Notes under the pieces: generated by a model
What the model was told of the DNA's origin: nothing
The model's input: the letters and a program-made list of their open reading frames with translations, nothing else
Databases searched by the model: none
From: Candidatus Krumholzibacteriota bacterium
Lineage (GTDB): Bacteria; Krumholzibacteriota; Krumholzibacteriia; JAJRXK01
Direction of reading: 5' to 3'
DNA: 64,000 nt
Assembly (NCBI GenBank): GCA_029262065.1
Contig: JAJDAC010000014.1
Span: 124,001 to 188,000 of the forward strand
In this document: positions 26,646 to 58,572 of the stretch, piece by piece
Position numbering within the stretch: position 1 is the stretch's first letter
Layout: the number at the start of each line of letters is the position of its first letter
Program-made: the position numbers and the translations under genes

Positions 26646-26678
26646 GTCGGAACCTTGCACCCCGGAGGCTCGAATTCC

Positions 26679-27218
26679 TTGGGCAACGTGTCCCCATCTA
26701 CATCGCGTGCCTTCGTGGTCACTGTAAGTGATCGCAGTGCCAGCGGTGAGCGCGAAGACGGCAGTGGTCCGGTCCTGGAGGACCTGCTCCGCGACCGAGG
26801 CTACGACGTGGTGGGGCGCCGGATCGTGGCCGACGGCCGCGAATCCGTAGCCAATTGCCTGCGGGAACTCGCCGATGACGCCGGAGTAGACTTGATTGTC
26901 ACCACGGGGGGGACCGGGCTGGCGCCGCGGGACCTCACGCCAGAAGGAACTCTCGACGTTGCCGATCGTCTCGTGCCGGGCTTGATGGAGCTGGCGCGTC
27001 GACGTTGCATCGAATCTACTCCCTTTGCCGCCCTCAGTCGCGGAGTGACGGTGATCGTGGGATCGACGCTGGTCGTCAACCTGCCCGGGAATCCCCGCGC
27101 CGCGAGCGAGACATTCGACGCGATGTCGGACGTCTTGCCTCACGCACTAGACATTCTTAGCCGCCCGGTCATCGATTGCGATGTCACAGGACGACGCGCC
27201 GCAGGAGACACCACTTGA
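26679..27218 (+). CDS. MoaB/Mog family molybdopterin-related protein
   Basis: MoaB/MogA proteins bind molybdopterin and in MogA adenylylate it before molybdenum insertion. The 179-residue protein has VVTVSDRSASGEREDGSGP near residue 10. The hallmark VTTGGTGLAPRDLTPEGTLD follows near 73, with the catalytic-type aspartate, then NLPGNPRAASETFDAM near 145. The TTG at 26679 is chosen because GGAGG (26664-26668) lies ten bases upstream; the TTG at 26655 would precede that site. No other molybdenum cofactor gene is nearby. The stop overlaps the next start (TTGA). Confidence 0.88.
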   Translation: MGNVSPSTSRAFVVTVSDRSASGEREDGSGPVLEDLLRDRGYDVVGRRIVADGRESVANCLRELADDAGVDLIVTTGGTGLAPRDLTPEGTLDVADRLVPGLMELARRRCIESTPFAALSRGVTVIVGSTLVVNLPGNPRAASETFDAMSDVLPHALDILSRPVIDCDVTGRRAAGDTT

Positions 27219-29053
27219 TTCGCGCCTGGCATACCTGGATGGTCCTCGCGTTCGCCCTTTCCGCCTGCGGCAGTCCGCCGGCGGTATCTACCGATCCCGT
27301 CTCCCGGACCGCGATGCCCGCCGCGCCCAGGGGTAGGACCCCTGAGCCAGTGCAGGGTTCGGTGACAGTCCGCGAGGAGTCCCGGTCGAACCCGTTCGAC
27401 GACGATGAGTTCCCGCTGGGCACCAACGTAGCCACCGCTCTCATCATTGCGTCGGCGTTGGTCGAAGAGGGTGATCTTGCGTCGGCCGTTCCCTACTACC
27501 AGTTCGCCTACGAGCAGGACCCAACCAATGTGGAGGTGGCGTTGCGATACAGCACCGCGGCGCTTCACGTGGGTCAAGTGGACAAGGCCTTGATGGTGCT
27601 GGAGGGCGTTGCTCAGGAGTACCCCTCGGATGTGGACGTTGGTCTGCAACGCGGGCGAATCCTCGCCGCGCTCGGTCGTATGGACGAGGCGGCCGCGGTG
27701 AATCGCGACCTCCTGGCGATATATCCCCTCAACGATGATCTGCGCGTCCAGCGGGTGACGCTGGTCGAAGACAACGCCCCGCTCGAGGCAGCGGCCTTGT
27801 TGGAAGACATGTTGGCTACTGACCCCGATCCGGCGCTGCGGACGCATCGGGCGACGCTGTTGGCGCGCGGTGGGGATTCTCAGAGTGCCGAGGCCGAGGC
27901 CTTGGCGGCTCTGGCGGTGGATCCCACGCTGGAACCGGCGGCCGAACTGCTCACGGAAATCTACAAGGCGCAGGGGCGCGAGGACGAAGTGGTGGGGTTG
28001 TTGGAGTCTTTGGTGGAGCGCACTCCCGGGCGGGAAGAACAGCGGATGGGCCTCGCCGACGCCTACCTGGGCGCGGGTCGTGCCGCCGACGCGGTGGCGT
28101 TGCTGCTTCCCCTGGCACAGGGCGGCCAGCTGGACTGGGGTGCCCAACTGTTGTTGGTGGATCTGTTGGGAACGTTGGGGCGCTCCGATGACGCCTGGCC
28201 ACTCGTCACCGCCATGATCGATCAGGGCGCCGATGGACCGTTGGTGAACCGCGTGGCCGGGGAGATCGCACTCGACCGCGGTGACGAGGAGGTGGCTCAG
28301 CGTTACCTCGAAAAAGCCATCGAAGGCGACCCGCACGATGTGGACAGCGTCATCAGCCTGCTGGTGCTGATGACCCGCCAGCACCCCGATTTGTTCCGCG
28401 AAGAACCGGCGGCTGGCGCCGACGTCCAGGGTCGATTCGACGAGCTGCTCGCGCGGGCGGGGGCGTTGGCCGACGAATCCAGCGTGCGTCACAATTATCT
28501 GGTGGGAGCCATGCTGCGGCGCTTGGAGCGCGACAGCGAAGCATTGCCTCATCTGGTCGCGGCGCATGGTCTGGCACCGGGAAACGCCGACATCCTCTAC
28601 GACCTGGCCGTAAGCCAGGAAGCCACGGGGGCCTATCGCGACGCGGCGGCCAGTCTGGAAGACCTTCTGAAGCTGAGACCCGAAGACGCCGACGTGTTGA
28701 ATTTCTACGGCTACCTGTTGGCTGATCAAGGGTGGGAGTTGGCCCGGGCCGAAACCATGATCTTGCAGGCGTTGGAACAGGAACCAGAGAACGCGTTCTA
28801 TCTGGATAGTCTGGGTTGGGTCTACTACCGACAGGGCAAATACGACGATGCGCTGGACAAGCTCATCAGCGCCAGCAATGGTATGGGCGACGACCCGGTG
28901 GTGCTCGAGCACATCGGCGACACGCTGGACAAGCTAGGACAGTATGAACGAGCGCTTTCCATCTACGAGCGGGCGCGGGACGCCGGCGGCGATCCCGCTG
29001 AACTCGAAGCGCGGCTGCAGGCAATCCGAAAGAAGCTTCGTGAAGCGCCCTGA
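27215..29053 (+). CDS. TPR-repeat lipoprotein, likely envelope-associated
   Basis: A 612-residue protein starting (M)IRAWHTWMVLAFALSACGSP, a lipoprotein signal with a lipobox ending at Cys18. After a proline-rich linker (about 20-60) the rest is helical tetratricopeptide repeats, about a dozen, such as ASAVPYYQFAYEQDPTNVE and LDSLGWVYYRQGKYDDAL near the C-terminus. The TTG at 27215 follows CAGGAGA and overlaps the moaB stop. The gene directly precedes a LolB-like gene, as a TPR gene precedes lolB in pseudomonads. That known pairing suggests a role in lipoprotein or envelope biogenesis, but the function is not established. Confidence 0.85.
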   Translation: MIRAWHTWMVLAFALSACGSPPAVSTDPVSRTAMPAAPRGRTPEPVQGSVTVREESRSNPFDDDEFPLGTNVATALIIASALVEEGDLASAVPYYQFAYEQDPTNVEVALRYSTAALHVGQVDKALMVLEGVAQEYPSDVDVGLQRGRILAALGRMDEAAAVNRDLLAIYPLNDDLRVQRVTLVEDNAPLEAAALLEDMLATDPDPALRTHRATLLARGGDSQSAEAEALAALAVDPTLEPAAELLTEIYKAQGREDEVVGLLESLVERTPGREEQRMGLADAYLGAGRAADAVALLLPLAQGGQLDWGAQLLLVDLLGTLGRSDDAWPLVTAMIDQGADGPLVNRVAGEIALDRGDEEVAQRYLEKAIEGDPHDVDSVISLLVLMTRQHPDLFREEPAAGADVQGRFDELLARAGALADESSVRHNYLVGAMLRRLERDSEALPHLVAAHGLAPGNADILYDLAVSQEATGAYRDAAASLEDLLKLRPEDADVLNFYGYLLADQGWELARAETMILQALEQEPENAFYLDSLGWVYYRQGKYDDALDKLISASNGMGDDPVVLEHIGDTLDKLGQYERALSIYERARDAGGDPAELEARLQAIRKKLREAP

Positions 29054-29795
29054 GTTGATGCTGGTGGCCCTGGTCCTGTTGCTCATGTCCGCCTGCGCCA
29101 GCGGCCCCCAGCAGCAACCTTCGGTGAAATTACCGTCGCCGCTTACCGTCAGCGCCGACGCTCCAGGTTCGGCCCTGTACCTGCGTGGCGATGCCAAGGG
29201 ACCGCTGCCCGGAATGGGTCCCAGCGTCGAAATTGAATTCTGGATTCGGGCCGACGGTTGGTTGCGGGGCGAGTTTCGCTACGAGCTTCCCGACGGACGC
29301 GCCGCTCACGATGTTCTGGTGTGGACCCCCGACGTGGCGTTGCTGTTCGACCGGGTGCGCGGCGGCTTGGACCCGTTGGGTGAGTCCCCCGGGGTTCTCG
29401 AGGCCCAGGGGGCCGAGTTTCGAGTGGAGCATCTGGTCTGGTTGGGACTGGGCCGTTGGTTGGCCGCGGCCGACGCCAGTTGGCACTGGACGCAATCGCA
29501 ATGGCGGGGAGAATGGGCAGGATTGGCCATGCGGACGCTAGACGCCGATCGCAACGAGCGACCGGGAGCCACCGAGCTGGTATGGCGCGATGAAGACGGA
29601 AAATTCCTACGCCTGACGGCCCGCGTCGTATCCGAGGTATCTACCCCCTGGGGTCCCATTCCCACCGAATTGTCGGTCGATGGGGACCCTTTGGAGGCCA
29701 GGACCGTCGTGCGGTGGGACGTACAAGCGATTGAAAACATGGACGATACCAGTTTTGATCCACTGGCCGAGCCGCCCCGGGAACCCGGACGGTAG
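29040..29795 (+). CDS. LolB-like outer-membrane lipoprotein (tentative)
   Basis: A 251-residue predicted lipoprotein: (M)KRPELMLVALVLLLMSACAS with the lipobox cysteine at residue 19. The body is beta-rich, with alternating hydrophobic strands such as ALYLRGDAKGPLPGMG, VEIEFWIRADGWLRGEFRY and TPWGPIPTELSVDG. This is the pattern of the half-barrel LolA/LolB fold. LolB receives lipoproteins from LolA and places them in the outer membrane. The call rests on fold pattern, the lipobox and the upstream TPR gene; sequence identity to known LolB looks low. GTG at 29040 overlaps the TPR gene by 14 bases; an ATG at 29058 would remove the Lys-Arg of the signal. Confidence 0.5.
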   Translation: MKRPELMLVALVLLLMSACASGPQQQPSVKLPSPLTVSADAPGSALYLRGDAKGPLPGMGPSVEIEFWIRADGWLRGEFRYELPDGRAAHDVLVWTPDVALLFDRVRGGLDPLGESPGVLEAQGAEFRVEHLVWLGLGRWLAAADASWHWTQSQWRGEWAGLAMRTLDADRNERPGATELVWRDEDGKFLRLTARVVSEVSTPWGPIPTELSVDGDPLEARTVVRWDVQAIENMDDTSFDPLAEPPREPGR

Positions 29796-29860
29796 CCAAC
29801 GCGTTCAATCTCCGGTAGTTGGGCTCTCGATTCAGATCCCTTCCCCAGGAGGATGGACGA

Positions 29861-30556
29861 ATGCGCAGTGGAGGCTTGGGTGGAAGCAAGGTGGCCGCAT
29901 TGGATCCTGATCGACGCCCGCAATCTCGCCAGGAAATGACCGACGAAGAGCTCATGCTCCGCGTCCAGGCCGGCGAAAAGGCCTGCTATGACATCCTGGT
30001 GGGTCGCTACAAGGTACGTCTGTTCAATTACCTCCTGCGGATGGTAAGCGACCCCGACGTGGCCGAGGAAGTCGCGCAAGACGCGTTCGTGCGCGCCTAC
30101 ATCAACGCCGACAAGTATCGCACCATCGCTCGTTTTTCGACGTGGCTGTACACCATCGCCACGAACCTCGTGCGCAACCGTTTCCGGAAGAAGAAGCGCC
30201 GGCCACCGGTGCTTTCGCTGTTCTTCAAGGCGACGCCCGACGGCGAGGAAATGGTGCACGAAATTCCCGACCCGTCGCCCAACCCGGAGCAGATCGCGGT
30301 GGGCCACGATCTCGAACGCCTGATCGCGCAGGCTACCGAGCAGATTCCCGAGCGATATCGGGAACCGTTTCTGCTGCGCGAAGTAAACCAATTGAGCTAC
30401 GAAGAAATCCGGGCCGTGACCGGATTGAAGCTCGGCACCGTGCGCAGCCGCATCAACCGTGCAAGGACGCACTTTCGCAAAGTCATCGAACCGTTGCTTC
30501 AGGACATGCCTGACGACGACGATCTACCGCCAACCCCTGAGGTTTCCACGCCGTGA
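29861..30556 (+). CDS. ECF-type RNA polymerase sigma factor (RpoE family)
   Basis: A 231-residue group-4 sigma factor. Region 2 spans about residues 26-100 (DEELMLRVQAGEKACYDILV, and WLYTIATNLVRNRFRKKK, which binds the -10 element). Region 4 spans about 150-205 (LPERYREPFLL-like IPERYREPFLLREVNQLSY, then GTVRSRINRARTHFRKV, the helix-turn-helix for the -35). An acidic tail follows. The ATG at 29861 is chosen because AGGAGG (29848-29853) lies at correct spacing. The stop overlaps the start of a membrane protein (GTGA), the usual sigma/anti-sigma arrangement. Its flanking lipoproteins hint at an envelope stress role. Confidence 0.92.
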   Translation: MRSGGLGGSKVAALDPDRRPQSRQEMTDEELMLRVQAGEKACYDILVGRYKVRLFNYLLRMVSDPDVAEEVAQDAFVRAYINADKYRTIARFSTWLYTIATNLVRNRFRKKKRRPPVLSLFFKATPDGEEMVHEIPDPSPNPEQIAVGHDLERLIAQATEQIPERYREPFLLREVNQLSYEEIRAVTGLKLGTVRSRINRARTHFRKVIEPLLQDMPDDDDLPPTPEVSTP

Positions 30557-31218
30557 CTCTCGATCGTAAAGCCCGTGAACTCGTCTCCCGGGGCCTGGAC
30601 GAGACACTTTCAGAATACGAGCGCAACCAGCTCGAGCAGGCGCTGCAAGACCCGGCGTGCGCCAAATACCACGATGATCTGTTGCGAGGGCGAGAGCTAT
30701 TGCAACAGGGTCTGGTGGAGCCACCTGACAATTTCGAGTGGAAGGTGCAATTGGGAATCCAACGCGCCTTGCGTGGCGAAGCCCAGGGCCGTGCGATGCC
30801 GGCGCCCCCGCGTCGGTTCTGGTTACCGGTAGGCGCTACCGCGGCGGCTATGGCGGTCGCAGTGGTAGTGATGGGCGTCTGGTTGCTACCCGGCGGCAAT
30901 GGCCTGCAGCCCGATGGTGCACCGATGGCTGGCGTGTCGCTGGACCAGGCCGAGCGTCTGAGGGATACCGACTTTCCCAAATTCGGAGTGCCGCCCGGCC
31001 TCGACGGTCGACAGGTCGGAGGCGTTCCTGACAGCCGTGGTTGGATTCCGGCGCCCGGAGTGCCTGATTCTCAGGGCGACCTGGAGCTGTTGGTGAATCG
31101 CTACAACCGCGTGGTCGGCGAACGTGATGCGCTTCGACTCGAGAACCAGGCCTTGCGTGACCAGCTTCAGCAAGCCAATATTCCGAGCACGGGCCAAGGG
31201 GAAGAATCCCCACGCTGA
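30553..31218 (+). CDS. Probable membrane anti-sigma factor
   Basis: A 221-residue single-pass membrane protein coupled by overlap to the ECF sigma gene. Residues 1-60 are helical and charged (SEYERNQLEQALQDPACAKY), like the cytoplasmic sigma-binding part of anti-sigma factors. One membrane helix lies at about 90-110 (GATAAAMAVAVVVMGVWLL), followed by an extracytoplasmic linker rich in Gly/Pro/Asp. The last 40 residues form a short coiled coil (LELLVNRYNRVVGERDALRL). The usual HxxxCxxC zinc motif is absent; only one cysteine is visible in this region. The function is inferred from position and topology. Confidence 0.7.
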   Translation: MTLDRKARELVSRGLDETLSEYERNQLEQALQDPACAKYHDDLLRGRELLQQGLVEPPDNFEWKVQLGIQRALRGEAQGRAMPAPPRRFWLPVGATAAAMAVAVVVMGVWLLPGGNGLQPDGAPMAGVSLDQAERLRDTDFPKFGVPPGLDGRQVGGVPDSRGWIPAPGVPDSQGDLELLVNRYNRVVGERDALRLENQALRDQLQQANIPSTGQGEESPR

Positions 31219-31236
31219 TCTTCTGAGGGACGTTCA

Positions 31237-32307
31237 TTGAACGCATCAACACATGGATCCATACGCGCCCTTCGCCACCTGGCGAGGGGCGTTGTCGTTG
31301 CCACCCTGACGCTGGCCACCCTGACCCAGATAGTAGCGTGCGCTGATTCCGACCCGATCATCCACGCGGTTGGTCCGTACTCCGACGTTCACATCCTCAC
31401 CGATACGCGCAACCTGATGCCCGTGGCCGAAGCGCTGCGCAAGGAACTGCAAACTCCGGTGGAGTACTCGCTTCAGCCCGAGAAGACCCTGAACGTCATG
31501 ATCTTCGATGCCAAGGAGAAGAAGGGCGCGAAGGTCGCCAAGAACATCATCGTACTGGGCATGGTGAACGGGAAGGACCGCGCCTCGCAGGAAATCAGCC
31601 GTCATCTCGAGGGCGAATCGCTGCGTGGTCTGTCGGCCAAGGACCTGTTCGTGGCCGAGCGGGAAGACATCTATTTCAAGAACCAGAACGTGATTTTCCT
31701 CGCGGGTTTCGATCGCAACATGATGCAGGCGGCCATCATGAAAAAGGCGCCGGCGTTGCGTGGGCAGATCGAGATCAAGAACCGCCAGCGCGTTCGCGAC
31801 TTCCTGTTCAGCTTTGGTCACGATGTCGACCTCGAACAGCAGATCCAGCGTGACGCCGGGTTCGTGCTGGGAGTACCCGCCGACTACAAGGTCACGCGAT
31901 TCGCGAAGGGCGACAATCGAGGCGTCGTGGAGATCGCGGCCACCGGACCCACGCGAACCTTGGCCGTCATGTGGCAGCAGGTGGACAATCCGAACGTGCT
32001 GGCCGACCAGCCGTTCCTGCTGGAGCAGCGACGAGCGTGGGGGAAGGAGTTCCTCGATGAAGACTTGTCCGAGGCCGGCGGATTCGAATGGACCCTCGAG
32101 GATTTCCGCGGGGACACCGTTCCCAAACTCGCGGGCTTCTGGGAAGGCGATACCTACGGCGGGCCGTTTCGGACGATTTTCCTGTACGACCCGCATCGAC
32201 GCCGCCTGTTCGGACTGAACATGCTTTGCTATGCGCCGAATATGGACAAGCACCCTTACATGCGCGAGACGCACGCTCTGGCCGAGACGTTTCGCCTGCG
32301 TCCATGA
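31237..32307 (+). CDS. DUF4837 family lipoprotein
   Basis: A 356-residue exported protein with a long signal (residues 1-35) and a cysteine in LTQIVACADSD that fits a lipobox (Cys35). The mature part resembles DUF4837, a family I associate with Bacteroidota relatives and no known function. The similarity shows in VHILTDTRNLMPVAEALRKE near 50, RVRDFLFSFGHDVDLEQQIQ near 190, and the repeated Trp-rich C-terminal half with WKL-like MWQQVDNPNVLADQ. The TTG at 31237 follows GAGGGA (31225-31230). It lies 18 bases after the anti-sigma candidate and overlaps aroB. Family assignment is moderately sure. Confidence 0.65.
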   Translation: MNASTHGSIRALRHLARGVVVATLTLATLTQIVACADSDPIIHAVGPYSDVHILTDTRNLMPVAEALRKELQTPVEYSLQPEKTLNVMIFDAKEKKGAKVAKNIIVLGMVNGKDRASQEISRHLEGESLRGLSAKDLFVAEREDIYFKNQNVIFLAGFDRNMMQAAIMKKAPALRGQIEIKNRQRVRDFLFSFGHDVDLEQQIQRDAGFVLGVPADYKVTRFAKGDNRGVVEIAATGPTRTLAVMWQQVDNPNVLADQPFLLEQRRAWGKEFLDEDLSEAGGFEWTLEDFRGDTVPKLAGFWEGDTYGGPFRTIFLYDPHRRRLFGLNMLCYAPNMDKHPYMRETHALAETFRLRP

Positions 32308-33383
32308 GGGACTTCCGCGTTCGCCTGCGTCCCAGTTACCCGGTGCGCACGCGCGCGACCTTCGCGCAGACGTGGGACGCGTTGCGCCAGGATCACCCCG
32401 ACCGACCGGTAATGTTGGTGGTGGACCGGCGACTGGCGGAAAAAAATTCCGCCGTCCTGAGAAGTATGCCCAGGGCATGGCGCTCGCGTATGACCCTGGT
32501 GCCCGGTGGGGAAACGTGCAAGCACTCCCGCTGGCTGAATACCTTGTGGCGCCAAGCCGTCGAGCATCGGGTCGATCGGAACACGCTGGTGATCGCGGTG
32601 GGCGGCGGCACGGTCGGCGACCTGACGGGCTTCTTCGCCGCCAGCTACCTCCGTGGCCTGGATTGGTGCCCGGTGGCCACGACGGTACTGGCCATGGCCG
32701 ACAGTGCCGTGGGGGGCAAGACCGGACTCAATCTGGAGGGGCGCAAGAACCTGGTGGGCGCATTCCACCAGCCGCGCGGCGTGTACTCGGTACAAGAGGC
32801 TCTGCGAACCCTGCCGCGTCGGCATCGGATCTCTGGCCTGGCTGAAGTGATCAAGTCGGCTGTCATCGGCGACGCCAAGCTGTTCGCTCGGATCGAGCGG
32901 GAAGGGCACAAGCTGGGTGAGTGGGATCACCCGCTTTGGTCGGTGCTGGTGCACCGGGCGAGCGCCATCAAGGCCAATGTCGTGGCGGAAGATCCGCTCG
33001 AGCGCGGGCGCCGCGCGATCCTGAACTTCGGCCACACCTACGGTCACGCGTTGGAGACGGTCGTGCGTCCGCGTTTGCATCACGGCGAGGCGGTAGCCCT
33101 GGGCATGATTGCTGCATGTTTTCTGTCGGAATGGTCAGGACGGGCGCCGGCGGGTACGTTGGATAGAGTGGAGTCGGTTCTTGCCGAGTCCGGTCTTCCT
33201 GTCCGGACCAAACCGATGAGTGTTGCATCTATAATGGATGCAATGCGTTACGACAAAAAGTCCGAGGGCGGCCGCACCAGAATGGTATTGACTGACGATA
33301 TTGGCTCGGCTAGCTTCGGCCACATCGTCGATGACGGTTCACTCCGTCGCGCCGCGCGTTTTCTGACGCGTCGTCAAAGTTGA
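32304..33383 (+). CDS. aroB: 3-dehydroquinate synthase
   Basis: Second enzyme of the shikimate pathway: cyclises DAHP to 3-dehydroquinate using NAD and a divalent metal. The 359-residue protein has VAVGGGTVGDLTGFFAASY near residue 97, TTVLAMADSAVGGKTGLN and KNLVGAFHQP. SGLAEVIKSAVIGD follows, and metal-binding histidines sit in LNFGHTYGHALE (near 237) and LHHGEAVALGM. The ATG overlaps the DUF4837 stop (ATGA). The N-terminal 50 residues are less conserved. aroQ lies 1.2 kb downstream, and aroC-aroK are 25 kb upstream. Confidence 0.94.
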   Translation: MRDFRVRLRPSYPVRTRATFAQTWDALRQDHPDRPVMLVVDRRLAEKNSAVLRSMPRAWRSRMTLVPGGETCKHSRWLNTLWRQAVEHRVDRNTLVIAVGGGTVGDLTGFFAASYLRGLDWCPVATTVLAMADSAVGGKTGLNLEGRKNLVGAFHQPRGVYSVQEALRTLPRRHRISGLAEVIKSAVIGDAKLFARIEREGHKLGEWDHPLWSVLVHRASAIKANVVAEDPLERGRRAILNFGHTYGHALETVVRPRLHHGEAVALGMIAACFLSEWSGRAPAGTLDRVESVLAESGLPVRTKPMSVASIMDAMRYDKKSEGGRTRMVLTDDIGSASFGHIVDDGSLRRAARFLTRRQS

Positions 33384-54509: not shown

Positions 54510-55034
54510 ATGAACTGTCAACACTGCGGAAAACATACGGCCAGCGTCCAGTTCACCCAGGTGGTGGACTCGCAGAAGCAAACGCAGTGGTTGTGCGCCG
54601 AATGTGCCTCGTCCGAGGGCCTGCTCGAAGTCAGCAAGCCCAAGCCGACGTTGGCGATCCAGGCGGGAATAAAGAAAGTCACCATCAGCTCGGGGTCGGC
54701 CGCCGAGGTCAAGGCGGGGCGCGTGCGGTGCGCGGATTGCCAGACCTCGTTGGCGCAGGTGCGGCGCAGCGGTCGCGTGGGTTGTGCACTTTGTTATGAG
54801 ACGTTCTCCGAGTATCTCGAACCGCTGCTGCGGCGCATCCACGAAAGTCTGGAACACGTGGGATCACGTCCAGACGACGAGGACGAACGCACGCGCCGGC
54901 AAGCCCAGCTGCGCACGCTTCGCTCCGAACTTGTGACGGCGATCGCCCACGAAGACTTTGAACAGGCCGCCGCTCTGCGCGACGCTATCGAACAATTGGG
55001 CGGCGACCCGGATCAACCGGGGGACCAAGCATGA
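54510..55034 (+). CDS. mcsA: McsA-like zinc-finger protein, activator of McsB
   Basis: McsA activates the protein-arginine kinase McsB. The 174-residue protein has two CxxC pairs at the N-terminus (MNCQHCGK, LCAECASS) and another two near residues 71-90 (VRCADCQTS, VGCALCYETF). A C-terminal UVR-type helical motif (AIAHEDFEQAAALRDAIEQL) follows. This is the usual McsA architecture, with all eight cysteines in pairs. The start is ATG at 54510; its end overlaps mcsB (ATGA). The 54 bases before it show no CtsR or CIRCE operator that I can see. Confidence 0.88.
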   Translation: MNCQHCGKHTASVQFTQVVDSQKQTQWLCAECASSEGLLEVSKPKPTLAIQAGIKKVTISSGSAAEVKAGRVRCADCQTSLAQVRRSGRVGCALCYETFSEYLEPLLRRIHESLEHVGSRPDDEDERTRRQAQLRTLRSELVTAIAHEDFEQAAALRDAIEQLGGDPDQPGDQA

Positions 55035-56110
55035 TTGCGTCGCTGAAGGATCTGGCGCAGCGGCCCGCGCCCTGGCTGGTGGGCGAGGCTCCCGACCGGG
55101 ATATCGTCTTGAGCAGTCGCGTGCGCCTGGCGCGCAACGTGGAGGGCCGGCATTTCGCTCACACGGCCGGGGAGTCGACTCTGGACGAGCTGCGCGAGCG
55201 GGTTCTGGCGGCCACGGGTCGTGTCGGCGGGCTGGTCGGGGCCACGGTGCTGAACATGGAAGATCTTGCCGAGCTGGATCGTCGTTTCCTGCTGGAACGC
55301 CATCTGATCTCCGTCGATCTGGTTCGAAACCTGCCCGGACGGTGCCTCGTGGTCAGCGACGACGAAGCCGAGGGCATCATGGTCAACGAGGAAGACCATC
55401 TGCGTATTCAGACCCTACGCACCGGTCTGGACCCTCTGGGGGCGCTCAAGGGAGCGCTTCGATTGGCCGAGGAACTGGAGGCCGAAGTGCCGTTTGCGTT
55501 CGATGAACGCCTGGGATACCTCACGGCCTGCCCTACCAACGTGGGAACCGGGTTACGGGCATCGGTCCTGCTTCACCTCCCTGGATTGGCCCAGACGGGT
55601 GACATAGAGCGGGTCTTGAACAGCTTGCGCCGGTTGAACTACACGGTGCGTGGCTTCTACGGTGAGGGTAGTGGCGTCATTGGATCGTTGTACCAGGTTT
55701 CCAATTCGGTCACGTTGGGCCCTTCCGAGGACGATATCGTCCAAGAACTTCTCCGACATACCCGACAGGTCATCGCCGCGGAGCGAAAAGCCCGGCGATA
55801 CCTCATGGAGTCGGAAGAAGTGGGACTGTCCGACCGGGTTTGGCGGGCCCATGGGGTTCTCTCGCATGCCCGACTGCTTTCAACCAAGGAAGCCTTCGAA
55901 CGACTTAGCGACGTTCGGCTGGGGAGTGGCCTCGGAATCCTTCCCGGGGTGGACGAATCGATGCTGAATATGCTTCTTATCAGTGTGCAAAGTGCCCATC
56001 TCCAGATCGTGGCGGAGGCTTCGCTCGACGCACCCGCCCGCGATGAGGTGCGCGCCCGCTACGTACGTGATCAGCTTGCCATCGCGCATACAAGGAAGGA
56101 CGAGCGATGA
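55031..56110 (+). CDS. mcsB: Protein-arginine kinase McsB
   Basis: Phosphorylates arginine residues on proteins and marks them for ClpC. The 359-residue protein belongs to the ATP:guanido phosphotransferases. It has IVLSSRVRLARNVEGRHFA near residue 25, EDHLRIQTLRTGLDPLGAL near 120, then LGYLTACPTNVGTGLRAS near 160 with the catalytic cysteine. RGFYGEGSGVIGSLYQVSN follows near 205. The C-terminal region includes the sequence near DVRLGSGLGILPGVDE, which in McsB includes the phosphoarginine pocket. It is coupled by overlaps to mcsA and clpC. Confidence 0.93.
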   Translation: MIASLKDLAQRPAPWLVGEAPDRDIVLSSRVRLARNVEGRHFAHTAGESTLDELRERVLAATGRVGGLVGATVLNMEDLAELDRRFLLERHLISVDLVRNLPGRCLVVSDDEAEGIMVNEEDHLRIQTLRTGLDPLGALKGALRLAEELEAEVPFAFDERLGYLTACPTNVGTGLRASVLLHLPGLAQTGDIERVLNSLRRLNYTVRGFYGEGSGVIGSLYQVSNSVTLGPSEDDIVQELLRHTRQVIAAERKARRYLMESEEVGLSDRVWRAHGVLSHARLLSTKEAFERLSDVRLGSGLGILPGVDESMLNMLLISVQSAHLQIVAEASLDAPARDEVRARYVRDQLAIAHTRKDER

Positions 56111-58572
56111 ACGATCGCTTTACCGAACGAGTTCGAAAGGTCCTGTTTCTCGCCCGCGACGAAGCGGGCCGGATGCAGCATGACTACATCGGTACCGAGC
56201 ACCTGTTGCTCGGCATCATCCGCGAGGGCGAGGGAATCGCGGCGCAGGCGCTGCAGCGCCTGGGCATGGACTTCGACCAGATCCAGCAGGCGGTGGAAGA
56301 CATGGTCACGACCCAGAGCGGGACGTTGACCATCGGTGAGATTCCCTTCACGCCGCGGGCAAAGCGCGTGTTGGAACTGTCGATCGACGAAGCGCGGCTG
56401 CACAATCACAACTACGTGGGCACCGAGCATCTTCTGCTGGCCTTGATTCGCGAGGGCGAGGGCGTGGCCGCCCGCGTGCTGCAGGATCTGGGAGCCGAGC
56501 ATGAGAAGGTCAAAAAAGAAATCATGAAGCTACTGGGCGGTGCGCAGAAGGGCACCGCCGAGGGTGGGGCCAAGCGCAAGAAGGAAACGCCCGTACTCGA
56601 TCAGTTCGGCCGCAACCTCACGCAGCTGGCGCGCGAAGACAAGCTCGACCCAACCATCGGACGCGAGTCCGAGATCGACCGTGTCGTGCAGATTCTTTCG
56701 CGGCGCAAGAAGAACAACCCCGTACTCATCGGGGAGCCGGGCGTCGGCAAGACCGCGATCGCCGAGGGATTGGCGCAACGCATCATCGACGGTCGCGCGC
56801 CGCAGCTGCTGCAGGGGTGCGAACTCATCACGCTCGACCTGGCCAGCGTGGTAGCCGGCACCAAGTATCGCGGACAGTTCGAGGAACGCCTGAAGGCGAT
56901 CATGAACGAGATCCGCGAGTCAGAGGAGATCATTCTCTTCATCGACGAGCTGCACACCATCGTGGGCGCCGGCGGCGCCGAGGGTGCGATCGACGCCAGC
57001 AATATGTTCAAGCCGGCGCTCGCGCGCGGCGAGATCCAATGCATCGGTGCCACCACGCTCGATGAGTACCGCAAGTTCATCGAGAAGGACGGTGCCCTGG
57101 AGCGCCGTTTTCAATCGGTCATGGTGAATCCTCCCACCGAGGACGAAACGGTCGAGATCATTTTCGGTCTGCGCGACAAGTACGAGGCGCACCACCGGGT
57201 CAAGTACTCCGACGAGGGTATCCGGGCCGCGGTATATCTGTCGGTGCGGTACATCAGCGGGCGCAGTCTGCCCGACAAGGCCATCGACGTGATCGACGAG
57301 GCGGGTAGTCGCGCCCGACTGTTCGCCACCGCGGTACCCAAGGATCTGCGCGAACTCGAGAAGAAGATCGAGGAAGTCAGCAAGGTCAAGGAAGCGGCCA
57401 TCCAGAATCAGGAATTCGAAAAGGCGGCCAAGTTTCGCGACGAGGAAAAGCAACTGCGAAACCGTCTGGCGGACGAGCGGAAGGCCTGGGCCGAGGACCG
57501 CACCGACAGCGATACGATAGTGGGGGTCGAGGAGATCAGTCGCGTGATCTCGGACATGACGGGTATTCCCGTATCCGAGGTGGAAGAAGCCGAGGGTAAC
57601 AAGCTGCTGCGCATGGAAGAGACCCTGTGCGAGAGCATCGTTGGCCAGGATGAGGCCGTGGGCGCCGTCAGCAAGGCCATTCGTCGTAACCGGGCCGGCC
57701 TGCGCGATCCACGTCGTCCCATCGGTTCGTTCATCTTCCTGGGACCCACCGGCGTCGGCAAGACCGAGGTCGCCCGGCAGCTCACCATCTTCCTGTTTGG
57801 CGACCTGAAGAATCTGGTGCGCATCGACATGTCCGAGTACATGGAGAAATTCTCGATCAGCCGTCTGGTGGGGGCTCCTCCGGGATACGTGGGCTACGAC
57901 GAAGGCGGCATGCTCACCGAGAAGGTGCGACGTCACCCGTACTCGGTCATCTTGCTCGACGAAATCGAGAAGGCGCATCCCGATGTGTTCAACCTGCTGC
58001 TGCAGGTGCTCGAAGACGGCATCCTTACCGACAGCTTTGGTCGGAATGTCGACTTCAAGAACACGGTGCTCATCATGACGAGCAACGTGGGTAGCCGGAA
58101 GGGCCAGCAGAGCAAAGCCATGGGCTTCGAATCGGACAATGTCGAAGCGATTCACGCCCGGATAAAGGCGAATATCAACGAGGATCTGAAGAAGACGTTC
58201 AGTCCGGAGTTCCTCAATCGGATCGACGATCTGATCACGTTCAATCCGCTGGACCGGGAGCAGATGTACCAGATCCTGAACATCATGCTGAACGATATGA
58301 ACGAGCGGTTGGTGAGCCTGGATATCACCTTCGAATATACCCGGGACGCGCGGGAGTTCCTGGTGGGCGTCGGCTTCGATCCCGAGCAGGGAGCCCGGCC
58401 GCTGCGTCGCGCTATCCAGCGGTACGTGGAAGATCCCCTGAGCGAGCGCTTGCTGCGACGCCAGGTTCGGGCCGGGACCCACCTGCTGATCGACTCGGGG
58501 CCCGACGGACTCACGTTCCAGGCCAAGGAGCGGGGCACCAACGAGCCAGAAGCGGCTCCTACCGCGTCCTGA
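56107..58572 (+). CDS. clpC: AAA+ unfoldase ClpC
   Basis: Hexameric unfoldase that feeds proteins to ClpP. The 821-residue protein has two Clp_N repeats (about 1-145), then AAA-1 with Walker [16 protein letters not shown] near 215 and Walker [10 protein letters not shown] near 280. A middle domain with a UVR-like coiled coil ([14 protein letters not shown] near 440) follows. AAA-2 has [15 protein letters not shown] near 550 and [13 protein letters not shown]. The C-terminus is a D2 small domain. MGF near 680 fits the ClpP-binding (V/I/M)GF loop. The N-terminal domain binds phosphoarginine in B. subtilis, fitting mcsAB upstream. Confidence 0.95.

Follow-up and report, generated by a model that had tools for sequence, protein, structure and literature searches.

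This report concerns a run of five genes in the window, a 64,000-nt stretch of contig JAJDAC010000014.1 from a Candidatus Krumholzibacteriota bacterium whose genome belongs to family f1 of its class. In this run, the gene for an extracytoplasmic function (ECF) sigma factor and a putative anti-sigma gene are flanked by genes for three predicted lipoproteins: a tetratricopeptide repeat (TPR) protein, a protein with a predicted LolA/LolB fold and a member of the DUF4837 family. All five open reading frames (ORFs) lie on the + strand, with the direction, coordinates and spacing that an initial annotation of this DNA had given them. The features of the locus, in positions of the window, are as follows.

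27215 (TTG) to 29053, + strand: TPR-repeat lipoprotein, LbcA-like (Pfam TPR repeats; best PDB sequence match LbcA, PA4667, 7rqf, 1.7e-16; lipobox FALSAC)
29040 (GTG) to 29795, + strand: LolB-like lipoprotein with a predicted LolA/LolB fold (AlphaFold2 model; VIA matches to LolB; lipobox LMSAC)
29780 to 29784, + strand: GGAAC, the -35 box of a putatively self-activated promoter, lying within the lolB-like gene at its 3' end (conserved class-wide)
29802 to 29807, + strand: -10 box CGTTCA, 17 bases past GGAAC (second information peak in aligned promoters)
29861 (ATG) to 30556, + strand: RpoE/AlgU/SigW-type ECF sigma factor (Pfam r2 and r4_2; PDB profile matches)
30553 (GTG) to 31218, + strand: predicted membrane anti-sigma factor with an RsiW-type N-domain, one transmembrane segment and a periplasmic C-terminal part (zf-HC2 in homologs; RsiW 1e-11)
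31237 (TTG) to 32307, + strand: DUF4837 lipoprotein with two domains, a MoaB-like N-part and a PsbP/Mog1-like C-part (Pfam 1.7e-20; structure model)
32304 to 33383, + strand: aroB (Pfam DHQS domains, 1.2e-40 and 1.1e-38)

The TPR and lolB-like genes overlap by 14 bp, a 65-bp gap separates the lolB-like gene from the sigma gene, the sigma and anti-sigma genes overlap by 4 bp, and the DUF4837 gene follows after 18 bp. The sigma factor (231 amino acids) contains Sigma70_r2 (8.5e-18, residues 46-114) and Sigma70_r4_2 (6.5e-14, residues 154-204) as its only Pfam domains, and its profile matches the PDB chains 8z6g (7.7e-45), AlgU (6in7, 1.7e-44), SigW (5wuq, 9.5e-42) and RpoE (1or7, 6.1e-38). Across the class it is conserved at 48-74% identity. 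It is one of many sigma factors in its genome, which holds 50 Sigma70_r2 matches, 49 of them over the cut-off. The product of the overlapping gene at 30553 has, taken alone, a weak zf-HC2 match below the Pfam cut-off (0.029); zf-HC2 is found in 29/29 aligned homologs at E up to 1, this copy included, and the family profile matches RsiW over residues 5-77. A single hydrophobic segment follows the N-domain, and the part beyond it, which would be periplasmic, holds a conserved R-x-V-S stretch (V in 26/29, S in 20/29). Judged by its sequence, the protein is an RsiW-type (class I) anti-sigma factor, the cognate partner of the sigma factor and predicted to bind it, a pairing that rests on homology to the solved SigW-RsiW complex. 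The initial annotation had proposed an ECF sigma factor with its own anti-sigma factor, and the AlgU/SigW/RpoE and RsiW profile matches bear this out.

For gene order and homolog counts, related genomes of the class were treated as separate items. DUF4837 was found in 77 of the 118 relatives searched and, with the window's own genome excluded, in 71 of 79 genomes of the same class; loci were taken from 70 of these 71, leaving out one with a weak match (G058). An ECF sigma gene lies directly upstream of DUF4837 in 64/64 loci with enough sequence, a count that is conditional on DUF4837 because the loci were selected by it; the other six of the 70 end no more than 675 bp from DUF4837. The anti-sigma gene was recovered by profile in 60/64 loci, and among the four misses (L178, L042, L179 and L184), L178 has a clear anti-sigma ORF and L042 a tblastn match to the anti-sigma protein. 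At position 2, the LolB position before the sigma promoter, a protein was recovered by profile in 57/64 loci. Two of the remaining loci (L062 and L073) have a LolB-like protein that was dropped by a filter artefact, two (L189 and L191) lie at contig edges, and three belong to family f4: L042 and L045, where a secreted (signal-peptide) ORF unmatched by the profiles holds this position, and L179, also a profile miss. The TPR gene was found in 53/64 loci, and its 11 misses comprise the three f4 loci, L072 (a run of N), L073 (the filter artefact) and six loci with no more than 457 bp of upstream sequence. Since the order recurs across the class, we conclude that it is far beyond chance. Conservation in relatives, on which the initial annotation had staked its reading, was thus found.

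Outside the class, four DUF4837 loci (L058, L076, L077 and L078) have no sigma match nearby, and an origin of the DUF4837-sigma arrangement beyond the class was rejected on this ground. One of them, L077, resembles several class members in having a TPR gene and efp after DUF4837; before DUF4837 stand C25-peptidase ORFs, of which one weakly matches a sorting domain. Close relatives of the sigma factor in other phyla are followed by a likely anti-sigma ORF in 4/5 loci (by eye), with LolB or DUF4837 beside the sigma gene in 0/5.

Inspection of the lolB-sigma junctions revealed a GGAAC box, which was then counted in the 230 bp before the sigma match. It is present in 36/36 loci of the discovery set, against 7.9 expected from shuffles, and in 26/28 loci added after the motif had been found, giving 62/64 overall; among 12 other genes with at least 15 upstream regions, GGAAC occurs at chance level in 10. 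When 36 promoters, the window's included, were aligned blindly on the 3'-most GGAAC, a second information peak appeared at a fixed spacing, at +22 to +27, with the -10 consensus G-T-(T/A)-T-(A/C)-A; over the larger set, GT stands at +22/+23 in 42/62. In the window, GGAAC at 29780 and CGTTCA at 29802 are separated by 17 bases; the putative promoter overlaps the lolB-like stop codon and would give the sigma transcript a 5' leader of ~48 nt. The sequence pattern is that of a conserved sigmaE-type promoter, GGAAC-N17-GTTTAA-like, which immediately precedes the sigma gene and is newly described here. The -35 element of E. coli RpoE, given as GGAACTT, has the same box, and AAC/CGT boxes, an own anti-sigma factor and autoregulation are described as classic hallmarks of ECF sigma factors (PMC8103513). 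The predicted sigma factor of the window combines r2 and r4_2 as sole domains, an adjoining anti-sigma gene and a putative promoter of the AAC/CGT type. Outside the class, one sigma relative (L173) likewise carries GGAAC-N17-CGTTTT ahead of its gene, which a likely anti-sigma gene follows, with neither a LolB-like nor a DUF4837 neighbour.

Together, these data make it likely that the locus encodes an autoregulated RpoE/SigW-type sigma/anti-sigma envelope-stress circuit, fixed across Krumholzibacteriota and located directly downstream of a LolA/LolB-fold gene, which in most families is preceded by the LbcA-like TPR lipoprotein gene. Besides the selection of loci by DUF4837, several observations count against such a circuit. 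In a test for conserved zf-HC2 zinc ligands, the window anti-sigma (30553-30660) lacks the His and the first Cys of the CxxC, and in all most of the zinc ligands, although its 28 aligned relatives mostly retain the His/Cys set. GGAAC is absent from L199 and from L191, which is cut at a contig edge, and the window's -10 box belongs to a minority form, CGT occurring in 3/62. GGAAC is also found upstream of the anti-sigma gene in 22/29 cases, an excess that would stem from coding sequence conserved within the sigma gene, and upstream of the TPR gene in 13/31 against 6.6 expected, where the starts of TPR matches are not gene starts.

With the gene identities, their conserved order and the promoter motif in hand, a course of events can be proposed. 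At rest, the RsiW-type anti-sigma factor would hold the sigma factor at the inner membrane, until a periplasmic signal arising from envelope stress inactivates it and releases the sigma factor. Freed sigma factor would then read the GGAAC-N17-GT(T/A)TAA-like promoter before its own gene, raising the output of sigma factor, anti-sigma factor and DUF4837 lipoprotein and, in this genome, probably of aroB and the genes beyond. Self-activation, membrane tethering and release on stress are what we infer from the homologies and the motif. The setting of the locus suggests that the switch watches over the cell envelope; that what it senses has to do with lipoproteins or lipids, and that the LolB-like protein plays a part, is speculative.

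The position of the promoter bears on how far this control extends. Because it sits between the lolB-like and sigma genes, the TPR and lolB-like genes would lie outside sigma control, and the sigma factor probably drives its own gene, the anti-sigma and DUF4837 genes and those downstream. A search of the lolB-like/sigma gap for a terminator or RNA structure found none. The DUF4837 gene and aroB overlap by 4 bp, so the five-gene unit has no sharp 3' end and aroB is probably cotranscribed. On the other side, a molybdopterin-domain (mog-like) gene at 26655-27218 overlaps the TPR gene by 4 bp, and the five genes are embedded in a longer same-strand run, with plsX-fabD-fabG-acpP-fabF-rnc-mog-like before them and aroB-TPR2-aroQ-efp-accB-accC after; the TPR and lolB-like genes are probably expressed constitutively along with the genes upstream. 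The initial annotation had instead proposed that the sigma factor senses faults in lipoprotein trafficking and regulates all five genes, perhaps together with lolCD and bamA. Gene order and the predicted LolB fold are consistent with this model, which we nevertheless regard as very improbable, as the promoter lies inside the set and the motif was not found before the other proposed targets. The window matches the motif exactly once, in front of the sigma gene, and with one mismatch at eight further sites (nine in total against 8.2 expected, that is, chance), and within it no match, even with one mismatch, precedes lolC (52505), lolD (53760) or bamA (58839) on their strand.

Strict scans of whole genomes gave the same picture. 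GGAAC-N17-GTATCA occurs at 18 sites in ten f3 genomes, seven of them the sigma promoter, against six for the reversed pattern. In eight f6/f7 genomes GGAAC-N17-GTATAA gave 13 sites, of which three fall on the sigma promoter, whereas the control gave 24. In these 18 genomes no recurring target besides the sigma promoter was detected, with other sites near control counts. A wide regulon is rejected at the level of the strict pattern, at which a looser one could escape notice. One candidate second target was set aside and kept only as a lead: in three f1 genomes (G000, G001 and G003, with a near-match in G002; loci L103, L102, L105 and L124), the 3' end of mfd carries a GGAAC-N17-CGTTcA-like site, and a gene for a SurA/PrsA-like lipoprotein lies downstream of it. 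This site is in frame within GTGxPRLTFNA, a stretch conserved in Mfd, and does not occur outside f1, so that coding constraint can explain it.

The 29040 product (251 amino acids, a single domain) belongs to no Pfam family. The AlphaFold2 model has a middling predicted local distance difference test (pLDDT) score of 75.9 and a predicted template modelling (pTM) score of 0.73. Structure comparison with VIA gave chains of the LolA/LolB superfamily, with 3bk5 at Z 14.7 ahead of LolB from P. gingivalis (9tpm, Z 12.1, root-mean-square deviation (rmsd) 4.4 over 195 residues) and E. coli LolB (1iwm, Z 11.0, rmsd 4.4 over 164 residues), and the N-domains of RseB/MucB followed at Z 7.2 to 7.7 (MucB 6in9, 7.7; RseB 3m4w, 7.6), a range below 8 in which, as the tool warns, a match may reflect merely a common arrangement. 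The protein is thus predicted to have the half-open beta-barrel LolA/LolB fold, and the LolB fold that the initial annotation had made a test of its reading is upheld in the model. At the sequence level, Pfam LolB and DUF4292 have no match in 17 LolB-like homologs, and a profile of the LolB-like proteins, run against PDB sequences, returned no LolB; no paper treating DUF4292 together with LolB was found in the literature searched. The putative lipobox Cys is invariant in 17/17 aligned proteins. A hydrophobic residue in a protruding loop is a hallmark of LolB, known from the E. coli protein. Two hydrophobic residues preceding a G (as in LFG), possibly equivalent to that loop, occur in 12/12 f3/f6/f7 rows and in the f2 row, and are missing from the window and three f1 relatives. 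Proteins at the LolB position in f4 and f5 show weak or no demonstrable homology, those of f5 having no common lipobox Cys column and an hhalign probability of 53% over 56 columns.

Among eight genomes searched, a LolB-like protein is single-copy and the sole such protein detected in seven, with none in the f5 genome; DUF4292 was not found in these eight, nor was LolA over the cut-off. An ORF at 1033-2499 of L145 has an N-part that weakly matches LolA (0.0019, below the cut-off) and a C-part that by eye is a TlpA-kind thioredoxin-like domain.

The neighbouring TPR protein has LbcA as its best PDB match also in an f5 relative (about 1e-20), and an f3 relative matches the same C-terminal LbcA block at 2e-12, ranked below many generic TPR chains. 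A TPR lipoprotein gene directly before the lolB-like gene agrees with LbcA identity, and the initial annotation's TPR-lolB pair outside Proteobacteria holds up, with its order kept in the class. In P. aeruginosa, lolB and ipk share an operon with lbcA, whose product recruits the protease CtpA (PMC6050968). DUF4837, a family for which no paper was found in the literature searched, has its putative lipobox Cys invariant in 22/22 proteins; a crude lipobox detector (35/64) missed many clear cases and was not used. Its model (pLDDT 90.2) resembles MoaB-type domains in the N-terminal half (3tcr, VIA Z 8.9, rmsd 3.6 over 120 residues) and PsbP (2xb3, VIA Z 12.3, rmsd 3.4 over 147 residues) and Mog1 in the C-terminal half.

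How the LolB-like gene relates to the switch can be read in more than one way. The two may be mere neighbours, an LbcA-lolB housekeeping unit for the outer membrane inherited beside an ECF module with another signal, such as misfolded outer-membrane proteins, the cell wall or oxidants. We hold this to be quite plausible, if short of probable. The sigma promoter leaves out both genes, in many families the whole region is kept together on the chromosome with fab, rnc, aro, efp and acc genes, and the accessible text on the Pseudomonas LbcA-lolB-ipk operon mentions no sigma gene (PMC6050968). However, L042 and L045 of f4 keep the order secreted protein-sigma-anti-sigma-DUF4837 although the fab/rnc/TPR flanks are gone, and the seven genomes with a match hold no second detectable LolB-like copy, leaving the 29040-type protein as the one LolB candidate. 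At L045, what stands ahead of the LolB-position ORF has no relation to the fab/rnc/TPR set and includes a TatA-like ORF, recognised by eye.

The fold common to RseB/MucB and LolA/LolB has long prompted the idea that a sigma circuit reads lipid or lipoprotein traffic. The LolA/LolB-fold protein could accordingly be an RseB-like regulator, instead of or besides its LolB function: it would bind lipid or a stalled lipoprotein in its half-barrel, and in its empty state shield the periplasmic part of the anti-sigma factor from proteolysis, so that a trafficking fault frees the sigma factor. While we judge this rather unlikely, we keep it in view because the gene persists beside the sigma switch, before its promoter in nearly all loci, even where LolB marks have faded, as in f5 (lipobox Cys), f1 (hydrophobic loop) and f4 (secreted protein). 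The shared fold and the R-x-V-S stretch also fit such a role, as does MucB, whose half-barrel is described as a lipid-sensing site that releases MucA (PMC7400510). Against this, the protein has one domain instead of the RseB/MucB architecture of a LolA-like N-domain with a C-terminal domain, it is encoded upstream of the sigma gene and outside the sigma-driven unit, LolA/LolB chains match it much better than RseB, homology of the f4 and f5 proteins is weak or not demonstrable, and R-x-V-S is short enough to be chance. The stronger version, in which the one LolB-type lipoprotein detectable in the phylum is also an RseB-like sensor arm whose half-barrel occupancy decides sigma release, seems to us distinctly doubtful; if true, it would tie lipoprotein delivery directly to transcription.

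Elsewhere in the window, upstream of bamA at 55031-58572, an ATP:guanido phosphotransferase-domain gene, which we take to be McsB-like, overlaps one for a ClpC-like protein.

Overall, the interpretation of the initial annotation is partly supported. Across seven families, the RpoE/SigW-type switch of the autoregulated circuit we propose has kept a LolB-fold gene, or one for a secreted protein instead, as its neighbour. Its promoter is readable, and the locus supplies concrete protein pairs and one promoter open to testing. It also adds a phylum with paired LbcA and lolB-like genes, and gives the DUF4837 family a context as a likely sigma-driven envelope lipoprotein. In the literature searched, no paper containing both Krumholzibacteri and sigma factor was found.

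Comparison with known systems places the locus between several of them. Like RpoE-RseA-RseB of E. coli and AlgU-MucA-MucB of P. aeruginosa, it has an ECF sigma factor of the same type, a putatively self-activated GGAAC promoter, a membrane anti-sigma factor and a periplasmic LolA/LolB-fold protein encoded alongside; here, however, the anti-sigma N-domain matches RsiW, the fold protein is a single-domain lipoprotein encoded upstream of the sigma gene, and a DUF4837 lipoprotein takes the third place. The anti-sigma N-domain and the sigma factor likewise resemble SigW-RsiW of B. subtilis, but the promoter is RpoE-like GGAAC and not the SigW box given in PMC8103513, and the window anti-sigma lacks most zinc ligands. 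As in lbcA-lolB-ipk of P. aeruginosa, a large TPR lipoprotein gene stands directly before a LolB-fold lipoprotein gene, with an ECF sigma gene in place of ipk and a LolB that is not matched at the sequence level. Flavobacterium LolB1/LolB2 are also lipoproteins recognised as LolB by structure alone, whereas their genes lie elsewhere and the accessible text reports no sigma link (PMC11885536). In Krumholzibacteriota, a circuit of the RpoE/SigW type appears to have been joined durably to DUF4837 and to a gene pair resembling LbcA and LolB.

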